The position numbers and the translations under genes were made by a program. This document shows, piece after piece, positions 30,047 to 32,899 of a stretch of 63,627 nucleotides of DNA (the first letter of the stretch is position 1; each line of letters starts with the position of its first letter). The DNA comes from Acidobacteriota bacterium (GTDB lineage: Bacteria; Acidobacteriota; Terriglobia; UBA7540). Location: the NCBI GenBank assembly GCA_902812465.1, contig CADDZE010000020.1:1-63627 (forward strand). The letters run 5' to 3'. The notes beneath the pieces were generated by a model, which worked only from the letters and a program-made list of their open reading frames with translations, was not told the origin of the DNA and made no database searches.

Positions 30047-30180
30047 AGTCGTCGCGAGTGACCCAGGAGCGACGGTCCGTTCGGGACCCTCGCAGGAGCA
30101 GGAGTCCGGGGCTACCTTATGCCCCGAGTCGGGAGTCGGCGGCTGTTTACCGGCTATTCCTGTCCCTTGCCACGGTTGTC

Positions 30181-30468
30181 ATGTTCTCGTGCTGGAAATG
30201 CGGCCAATCCGTGGAACTTCCGGCTGGCGGCCGCGTCGGCCAGCGCGACTCTTGCCCGCAATGCGACTCCGATCTTCACTCCTGCCGTAACTGCCGCTTT
30301 TACGACCCTGGCAAGCATAACCAGTGTTCGGAACCTCAGGCCGAGTGGGTGCGCGATAAGGAGGCCGCAAACTACTGCGACTACTTCGCCCCGCGGCTGG
30401 CTTCCAGCCGCGCGTCCTCTGCTGCCGAAGATGTCAGGCGAAAGTTCGACTCGCTGTTCAAAATCTAG
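30181..30468 (+). CDS. small zinc-ribbon protein of unknown function
   Basis: A 95-residue protein starting MFSCWKCGQSVELP. It has eight cysteines at 4, 7, 25, 28, 35, 38, 49 and 66. The first four form a zinc ribbon and the next pairs (CRNCRFYDP, then NQCSEP and NYCDYF) suggest a second metal-binding unit. The C-terminal VRRKFDSLF is helical. No enzyme motif is seen. I prefer this ATG over a start 41 codons upstream, since the upstream part lacks homology-like features and lies next to the rpoC stop. It may be an acidobacterial lineage protein; function unknown. Confidence 0.7.
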   Translation: MFSCWKCGQSVELPAGGRVGQRDSCPQCDSDLHSCRNCRFYDPGKHNQCSEPQAEWVRDKEAANYCDYFAPRLASSRASSAAEDVRRKFDSLFKI

Positions 30469-30472
30469 CCTT

Positions 30473-31603
30473 TCAGCGGCGGGTGCGAATGGGTGATAGG
30501 CGGGCGATCTCAGGCAGGCTGACGACTCGGGAAGCAGGCACGAGTTCGATGTCGCTCTGTTCAAGCTGGGGAAGGAACGCCCGCAGCGCCTGGATGGTAG
30601 CGGAGTGGGGATGACCGATCGCCACCGCCGTCCCTTGCTCTTCGACAATGCGTCGAAAGCGCTGCAGCTGACCCAGAACGTAGGGCACCGTCTGCTCGTC
30701 ATCGAGGAAGACGGAGCGGTAGAAGGCGGGCAGTCCCGCCCGCCGCGCCTCATCCAAGGCGACGCTATCCGGCGCGGTGCGGCTGTCGATGAAGTACAGG
30801 TGCTGCTGGGCAAGCACCGTCATCACCTCCGACATCAAGCGCGGATCGGCGGTGGCCCGCGATCCCATGTGGTTGTTCGCCCCGGCGGCAAAGGGCACCG
30901 AAGCCAGGGCGTCTTGAATGACTTGGGCCACTTCATCCGGCGTCATGCCAACCTCAACGGCGTCTTGGCCTGGCGGCACCGCTGAGCCAGGCCGTGGCTG
31001 CATGGGCAGATGAAGCATCACCTCGCGATGGGCACGGTGGATTTGCTCGGCCACGGCACGCGAGTACTCGAGGCGAGGAAGCACAGAGAAGGTTAAAGGA
31101 TACGGAAGTTCGAGGAGCTGCTTGGCTAGGTGGACGTCCTGGCCGAGGTCGTCGATGATGATGGCTGCTCGCCAGATGTGAGAAACCTCGCGGATTCGCC
31201 ACCTGCACACCAACTTCCGTCCTTGCAAGATGTCGATTTGCCAGGTCCGGCCAGGGGATGGCCCGTCATGCCGAACGGCCGTGAGACCCTCCCTTTGCGC
31301 TTCTCTCTCGAGGGCTGGCCATACTAGCTGGAAGGCTTGCGGGACGGCTAGCACCTCGGTGGAGCCGTTGCGGGTGGTGGGCTTTACCCAGACACCGAGC
31401 CCGCCGGCCTGCTCGATTGCCGCCCGAATCCGTGAGGTGATGCGGCCGCGATCGGCTTCGCTAAGCCGTGCAGCGGCATGAGAACCTTCGCGCTGGCGCG
31501 GTGGGGTGGTGTGCTGACAGCTGGCGGGCAGAAGCAGAGACAGGACAACGAGGAGGAGCCGGCACCTGGTCGGCGTGGTGGTCACAACCGCGGTTATCGA
31601 CAA
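30473..31603 (-). CDS. divergent polysaccharide deacetylase (YibQ/DUF610-like)
   Basis: A 376-residue exported protein. A hydrophobic segment near the N-terminus (LLLVVLSLLLPASC) is a signal peptide, with a cysteine that could be lipidated although the lipobox is imperfect. The C-terminal ~230 residues are the divergent deacetylase domain: AAIIIDDLGQD, MLHLPMQP, GANNHMGSRAT, LYFIDSRTA and AIGHPHSATI hold the putative metal-binding Asp/His set. The first half is a poorly conserved helical region. It follows the S41 gene by 78 bp on the same strand. The ctpA-yibQ pairing is also known from Proteobacteria, where these genes lie next to envC and relate to the cell envelope. Confidence 0.8.
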   Translation of the reverse strand: MSITAVVTTTPTRCRLLLVVLSLLLPASCQHTTPPRQREGSHAAARLSEADRGRITSRIRAAIEQAGGLGVWVKPTTRNGSTEVLAVPQAFQLVWPALEREAQREGLTAVRHDGPSPGRTWQIDILQGRKLVCRWRIREVSHIWRAAIIIDDLGQDVHLAKQLLELPYPLTFSVLPRLEYSRAVAEQIHRAHREVMLHLPMQPRPGSAVPPGQDAVEVGMTPDEVAQVIQDALASVPFAAGANNHMGSRATADPRLMSEVMTVLAQQHLYFIDSRTAPDSVALDEARRAGLPAFYRSVFLDDEQTVPYVLGQLQRFRRIVEEQGTAVAIGHPHSATIQALRAFLPQLEQSDIELVPASRVVSLPEIARLSPIRTRR

Positions 31604-31681: not shown

Positions 31682-32899
31682 TCACGCCGCTTTGGCGGGA
31701 GCAGCTTTCTCCTTCAGCACCTCGATCGCCTTTTGCAGCTGCACGTCATTCTTGCCGCCAAACTGTTCAGGTTGCTCAGGTACCGTTTCGTCCTGCAGGC
31801 CTGAGGTTTCGTCCTCTGTCTGCACCAGGACGTTGGGATTCACGCCGTTGTCCTGGATCGCCTTGCCGTCGGGTCCGTAGTACTTGGCCACGGAGAGCAA
31901 CAGGGCCGAGCCATCACCGACGGCGATCATCTTTTGAATGACGCCGACCCCAAAGCTGGGCACTCCGACTACGTCGGCGCGCTTATTGTTCAGCAACCCA
32001 TCCGCCAGCAGCTCAGCCGGTCCTGCTGTCGAGCGGTTAATGAGGATGGCCAGAGGCATCTTGAACATGGCGCTATGCGGTTTTACCACGATGTCTTCGC
32101 GAGGGCTGCGCTGCCCCTGAGTATAGCCGATTAATCCCTGATCCAGGAACAATCCGGCGGTATTGACGGCCTCTTGCGTTTCACCACCCGCGCAATTTCG
32201 CAGGTCCAGCACGAGCCTTGTGGCCCCCTGGGCGGTTAACTGCTTTGCCTGAGCTTCGATTTCTGTCGCCTTGCCCTTGTTGAAGGTTGCAACGCGGATG
32301 TAACCGGTGCCGTCTTCAAGCATCTTGCTAACCGGGGGGAGGTCACCCAGCACTTCGCGCGTCAGGACTATCTTTTGGGGTTCGCCGCGCGACTCGCCTA
32401 CCACCCAGAGTGTTACTTGGCTGCCCGGAGGACCGGCAAGCCGCCGCATAATTTGGACCACCGAGAGCTCGCGGGCAGACGTGGTGTCGATGCGGTCAAT
32501 CAGGTCGGCCGCCTTGATGCCAGCCTTCTCGGCCGGGCTTCCAGGCAGCACGGAAACGACCGTGGCATACCCGTATCGCTTGGAAAGGAAGATTCCGACA
32601 GTAGCCGGGCCTGGGTCGGGATGCTGGAGATAGTCCTGATATTCCTGGGGAGTGAAGTACGTGCTGTAGGGGTCAAGCGCCTCAAGCAGGCCGCGAATCG
32701 CTCCGCCGGTTACCTTCCTCAGGTCGGGCTCTGTCACGTAGTCGGTCTTGATGCGCGACAAGACTTCGCTGTAAACACCCAGGTCGCGGTACGTCTGTTC
32801 GTTGGAAGTGTCGTTCTTCCCAAGCAGGCCGCCGACCACAATGTACAGGACTAGGACAGAAGAGATTCCAATCAGGAAGGTGCGAACGCGAGCGCTCAT
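31682..32899 (-). CDS. S41-family (C-terminal processing peptidase) homologue lacking the catalytic dyad
   Basis: A 405-residue membrane-anchored protein. An N-terminal helix (FLIGISSVLVLYIVVGGLLG) is followed by a helical region, a PDZ domain (ATVVSVLPGSPAEKAGIKAAD) and the S41 core (GYIRVATFNKG, LVLDLRNCAGG). In active members such as E. coli Tsp, Ser430 in SASASE and Lys455 in FGKG form the dyad. Here the aligned positions are Gly293 (STAGPAE) and Val318 (SFGVGVIQ), 25 residues apart exactly as in Tsp. The fold is kept but peptidase activity should be absent. The ATG reading MSARVRTF is preferred to an upstream start. Confidence 0.85.
   Translation of the reverse strand: MSARVRTFLIGISSVLVLYIVVGGLLGKNDTSNEQTYRDLGVYSEVLSRIKTDYVTEPDLRKVTGGAIRGLLEALDPYSTYFTPQEYQDYLQHPDPGPATVGIFLSKRYGYATVVSVLPGSPAEKAGIKAADLIDRIDTTSARELSVVQIMRRLAGPPGSQVTLWVVGESRGEPQKIVLTREVLGDLPPVSKMLEDGTGYIRVATFNKGKATEIEAQAKQLTAQGATRLVLDLRNCAGGETQEAVNTAGLFLDQGLIGYTQGQRSPREDIVVKPHSAMFKMPLAILINRSTAGPAELLADGLLNNKRADVVGVPSFGVGVIQKMIAVGDGSALLLSVAKYYGPDGKAIQDNGVNPNVLVQTEDETSGLQDETVPEQPEQFGGKNDVQLQKAIEVLKEKAAPAKAA

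Follow-up and report, generated by a model that had tools for sequence, protein, structure and literature searches.

Why should a bacterium keep, directly beside yibQ, a gene for a CtpA-type S41 protease whose product no longer carries the residues needed for proteolysis? The question is raised by the window, a stretch of 63,627 nucleotides of Acidobacteriota DNA (contig CADDZE010000020.1), in which an earlier note made from the sequence alone had described an S41 processing-protease homologue with both catalytic residues replaced. Its coordinates for the gene fit our own and the strand is minus. The relevant features are as follows.

31682..32899, minus strand: S41 (CtpA-type) pseudo-protease of 405 amino acids, ATG at 32899 to stop at 31682, stop included (Pfam, alignments)
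32822..32893, minus strand: N-terminal hydrophobic helix, residues 3-26, membrane anchor or signal (DSSP helix in the model, hydrophobic sequence)
32402..32599, minus strand: PDZ domain, approximately residues 101-166 (Pfam PDZ_6/PDZ_2/PDZ)
31826..32308, minus strand: Peptidase_S41 core, residues 198-358 (Pfam PF03572, E 2e-37)
32021..32023, minus strand: codon of Gly293, at the position of the catalytic serine (P. aeruginosa CtpA Ser302; alignment)
31946..31948, minus strand: codon of Val318, at the position of the catalytic lysine (P. aeruginosa CtpA Lys327; alignment)
31703..31744, minus strand: C-terminal helix, residues 386-399, predicted counterpart of the CtpA C-terminal dimerization region (model helix; structure match up to the CtpA C-terminus)
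31685..31693, minus strand: C-terminal Lys-Ala-Ala tail, residues 403-405 (sequence, tail count across the clade)
30473..31603, minus strand: YibQ/SddA divergent polysaccharide deacetylase, metal residues Asp151, Asp152, His198 and His245 intact (Pfam, genome search, alignment; residue roles from PMC12440217)

The S41 core with its inserted PDZ domain and the CtpA-like predicted fold (Z 37.6) place the protein in the S41 family and indicate CtpA ancestry, while its score against TIGR00225 prc (207.1 bits) lies under the curated cut-off of 218.6. Alignment to CtpA from P. aeruginosa (7rpq, 4.6e-51), an enzyme with the triad Ser302-Lys327-Gln331 (PMC8764530), sets Gly293 opposite Ser302 and Val318 opposite Lys327, leaving the window protein without the serine and lysine that S41/CtpA enzymes require. 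Gly293 can be assigned to the catalytic serine column because the engineered S302A entry 7rqh departs from the wild type precisely there, and the replacements first proposed from the letters alone agree with both lines of evidence. A shifted register, in which a serine and a lysine would still come to occupy the catalytic positions, had been suggested as a way in which that reading might fail; it is rejected, as Asn288, Glu296, Arg307, Gly312, Gly317 and Gln322 are in register throughout the phylum-wide clade described below, and the clade alignment revealed no other conserved Ser/Lys pair near the dyad columns.

The third triad residue is retained as Gln322, with glutamine present in 65 of the 77 clade rows that lack the dyad. 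Together with the conservation of Thr291 in 74 of these 77 rows, this would be in keeping with a protein that remains proteolytic through an altered catalytic apparatus, for example with Thr291 or Cys236 as nucleophile. Active enzymes, however, also have a threonine or serine at the Thr291 position, beside the true catalytic serine, and no base is conserved, the lysine column presenting 17 different residues; Cys236, found in only 28 of the 77 rows, is rejected as a new nucleophile. We consider continued proteolysis of this kind extremely unlikely.

A search of 60 relatives for orthologues of the window gene gave 30 full-length family sequences, all with glycine for the serine and V, I, M or E for the lysine. 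Serine and lysine occur together at none of 80 named Terriglobia/Acidobacteriota loci, the majority of which are of the G/D or G/V type, and in a phylum-wide sample the dyad-less pattern reaches many further families. In a tree built with the dyad columns omitted, with a poorly resolved backbone and some long terminal branches, one phylum-wide clade of 82 rows was recovered (SH-aLRT 100), apart from the active paralogues, alphaproteobacterial CtpA and P. aeruginosa CtpA. The dyad is absent from 77 of these 82 rows, 66 of which present glycine in the serine column. The comparison with acidobacterial S41 proteins that the earlier note had proposed thus finds dyad absence to be nearly clade-wide, and the mutation of a single strain, which it had named as the contrary case, is rejected, the close relatives all lacking the canonical dyad. 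On this alignment the loss in the window protein is beyond chance, and the catalytic inactivity predicted for the clade is well supported.

The five remaining rows, which fall in two lineages, keep both serine and lysine (L044, L050 and L051 from one Terriglobia family, and L199 and L202). These islands have partly lost the second shell of the active site and are without the hinge aromatic discussed below (0/5); since the latter is also missing there, their catalytic activity is doubtful. The AU test (p 5e-5) rejects one single loss that would unite the dyad-less rows in one clade, so that the dyad was either lost several times or lost once and regained twice.

Pairwise dN/dS, which had been proposed as a further check, has a median of 0.091 and a maximum of 0.164 (411 pairs, dS < 2), values that mark strong purifying selection on the S41 pseudo-protease. 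A decaying pseudogene or assembly artefact found no support in any of these data and is refuted by open frames in scores of independent genomes and by these low ratios, such that its probability is negligible. The original view of a maintained pseudo-protease rather than decay is borne out by phylum-wide conservation, by the selection estimates and by an intact predicted fold.

The AlphaFold model of the window protein (mean pLDDT 84, pTM 0.77; residues 27-45 and 365-373 poor) has as its best solved matches H. pylori CtpA (Z 37.6, rmsd 2.6, 325 aligned residues) and the P. aeruginosa CtpA-LbcA complex (Z 36.0). The predicted fold is that of CtpA all along to the C-terminal helix. It keeps the membrane-proximal helix and the N-terminal cap as well as the PDZ domain and the core, and counterparts of both the N- and C-terminal CtpA dimerization regions are present in the model, the N-terminal part at low pLDDT. 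Interphotoreceptor retinoid-binding protein has an S41-related fold without protease activity, and its modules are among the structural neighbours of the model (Z 17.9), which would allow a role in ligand binding. Active CtpA structures nevertheless match far better (Z 37), the PDZ domain and cap are retained and the gene neighbourhood consists of peptidoglycan enzymes, making such a role very unlikely.

Conservation of the fold does not extend to the residues through which active enzymes are switched on. H. pylori CtpA, active with Ser300, Lys325 and Gln329, possesses a conserved Phe105/Arg162 switch and senses the substrate C-terminus via the hinge aromatic Phe105 (PMC12749690). An aromatic residue (F/Y) near residue 98, ahead of the PDZ G-X-G loop, is found in 13 of 16 active rows versus 0 of 77 dyad-less rows, and the window protein presents Ala155 at the column assigned to the PDZ arginine, Phe105 and the arginine having been mapped to residues 98 and 155 on the sequence alignment rather than by structural superposition. 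Also fixed in active enzymes and not in the clade are N236, G238, T210, Q303 and a Gly pair ahead of the PDZ loop. Because the substrate-sensing hinge and PDZ residues of active CTPs are changed, binding of C-termini by the PDZ domain of clade members is uncertain. The PDZ domain had first been described as intact; this stands for its fold but not for the conserved activation residues around it, which are lost.

The genomic context suggests where a protein of this kind might act. yibQ, present as a single copy in the genome, lies directly downstream of the S41 gene, as had been noted. In E. coli, YibQ is known as SddA; it deacetylates denuded peptidoglycan strands and is co-expressed with EnvC (PMC12440217). 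The zinc-binding Asp-Asp, His and His of SddA/YibQ (PF04748) are intact in all 59 Acidobacteriota copies. The pairing had been likened to that of Proteobacteria, and the order envC-ctpA-yibQ is indeed that of S. meliloti, from among the few Alphaproteobacteria compared outside the Acidobacteriota, as well as of P. aeruginosa (envC-ctpA-PA5135/sddA; PMC12569750). On the side of yibQ away from the S41 gene, the window has at 30058-30468, on the plus strand and facing yibQ, a 136-residue cysteine-rich ORF (CWKCG, CPQC, CRNC) without a Pfam or NCBIfam match.

An EnvC-like protein is encoded directly upstream of S41 in 32 of the fetched loci, in 30 of which the S41 protein is predicted to be inactive; yibQ is directly downstream in 42 loci, 41 with an S41 protein of the same sort; and full envC-S41-yibQ triads number 19 with an inactive S41 protein and one with Ser/Lys. 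The upstream EnvC of deep Acidobacteriota combines a coiled coil with a degenerate LytM domain whose metal motif is replaced (NNG, LYFEL). A search for full-length EnvC in Terriglobia, the window genome included, gave only LytM-domain matches, so the statement that no envC is seen holds for the window and, for the full-length protein, for the genome as a whole. From its distribution, full-length EnvC is lost from Terriglobia and the deep Acidobacteriota keep envC, yibQ and between them the putatively inactive S41 gene, which would account for the lack of envC in the window. Three acidobacterial loci (L256, L262 and L264) have envC followed directly by yibQ, with no S41 gene between them, as in E. 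coli.

The link to YibQ is, however, not exclusive. YibQ (PF04748) occurs in only 46 of 119 sampled genomes, and in one Terriglobia family it is missing from 12 of 12 listed genomes, 11 of which have a full-length S41 homologue. The pairing proposed at the outset stands, but not YibQ as sole partner (73 of 119 genomes are without it), and a function tied to YibQ alone is rejected. As the S41 homologue persists in many genomes without YibQ and without full-length EnvC, the set of partners must be wider or variable, with no single partner explaining the S41 protein. In many Terriglobia a PBP1A gene (transglycosylase and transpeptidase) is directly downstream of S41, which makes PBP1A a candidate partner in Terriglobales, and in other lineages MltG and YqgF are encoded divergently upstream.

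The window genome has five other S41 matches, three of which are ordinary paralogues with Ser/Lys. Their presence, with the dimerization-region counterparts retained in the model, would fit a decoy that joins CtpA-type oligomers or competes for clients and thereby shields peptidoglycan enzymes from active CTPs; iRhoms play a comparable role for rhomboids. Yet the active paralogues are proteins of 540-600 residues from a separate clade, about 30% identical to the window protein, so that mixed oligomers are not obvious, and the client-sensing hinge residues are gone. A decoy role thus appears unlikely, though it merits consideration. Two further irregularities were seen among the S41 genes collected. 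A second odd group of approximately 420 residues in the family of the window genome (L061:4019-5287, L062:960-2228, L063:1094-2359, L071:3909-5243) keeps the serine but has Thr for Lys and Leu for Gln, and is possibly another non-canonical or inactive S41; and in genome G059 the orthologue, of Ser/Ile type, is split across two frames (L059:3647-4045 and L059:4035-4931), a possible frameshift or assembly error.

The C-terminus of the clade is also distinctive. The last two residues are AA in 48 of 81 clade rows and the last three KAA in 33, against 6 and 1 of the 569 further ORFs from these loci that reach 250 residues and none of 15 active CTP rows, although the clade rows are related and are thus not independent trials. 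Preceded by a poorly conserved linker, the tail is found in deep lineages, in the family of the window genome and in the Ser/Lys rows. CTPs recognise non-polar C-termini, such as the ssrA-type LAA in the case of Tsp, and the (K)AA tail resembles a CTP degron or a PDZ ligand. It could accordingly be imagined that the protein is a timed scaffold, recognised through this tail by an active CTP or a sister subunit and thereby removed or latched. The tail is nevertheless lost in the G/D-type Terriglobales, which end in ...LKSRAS, and its counts lack phylogenetic independence; we regard timing through the tail as improbable. Frequent occurrence of this tail and loss of the hinge aromatic are newly recognised features of the clade.

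Taken together, we think it probable that the window protein is a maintained CtpA pseudo-protease, the Acidobacteriota ctpA of the envC-yibQ/sddA operon, acting as a non-cutting scaffold in peptidoglycan remodelling. A scaffold or adaptor function in envelope regulation had been put forward for it at the outset. Anchored at the inner membrane, the periplasmic protein would assemble in a CtpA-like manner through the dimerization regions at its two ends and might hold or tune remodelling partners without degrading them, these being EnvC and its amidases, the SddA deacetylase where present and, in Terriglobales, PBP1A. Known CTP biology is one of controlled proteolysis of peptidoglycan hydrolases, P. 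aeruginosa CtpA being described as acting on them in PMC6050968; here a phylum keeps the protein and discards the protease. The near phylum-wide loss of the dyad under strong selection suggests that CtpA has a non-catalytic part in cell-wall remodelling, one that has seemingly been overlooked and for which catalytic mutants of active systems could provide a test. Many Acidobacteriota S41 peptidase annotations are probably not peptidases. No earlier report of a bacterial S41 pseudo-protease was found in the literature searched, which covered few subscription papers.

Among known systems, the LbcA-activated CtpA of P. aeruginosa is alike in sequence (approximately 32% identity over the aligned part), in predicted fold (Z 36), in the PDZ domain lying within the S41 cap, in its dimerization regions and, for deeper Acidobacteriota, in the place of its gene between envC and yibQ/sddA. 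It differs in possessing Ser302, Lys327 and a hinge phenylalanine, where the clade has glycine, a variable residue and no phenylalanine, and in being without the KAA tail of many clade members. H. pylori CtpA, the closest structural match, is similarly set apart as an active enzyme by the Ser, Lys and Phe that the clade lacks and by the PDZ arginine to which Ala155 is assigned. The retinoid-binding modules are those of an animal protein with no peptidoglycan context. A further parallel is provided by rhizobia, where an envC-ctpA-sddA operon member is likewise inactive yet retained: in S. meliloti it is SddA, encoded beside a CtpA with Ser/Lys, that no longer has its metal residues (GG for DD, Q for H, Y for H; L244:5411-6613), as is also the case for the SddA/YibQ protein Atu2773 (PMC12440217). 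It is possible, though we advance this only tentatively, that the ancestor of Acidobacteriota or several of its lineages turned the operon CtpA into a non-proteolytic scaffold for peptidoglycan enzymes with a KAA tail and that, given the reciprocal rhizobial case, the proteins encoded by the operon associate in a complex, where either enzyme may drop catalysis without becoming dispensable. Dead SddA beside a Ser/Lys CtpA in rhizobia, and a putatively dead CtpA beside an SddA with intact residues in Acidobacteriota, constitute a natural experiment on the envC-ctpA-sddA operon, one which indicates that either of its enzymes can lose catalysis and stay.
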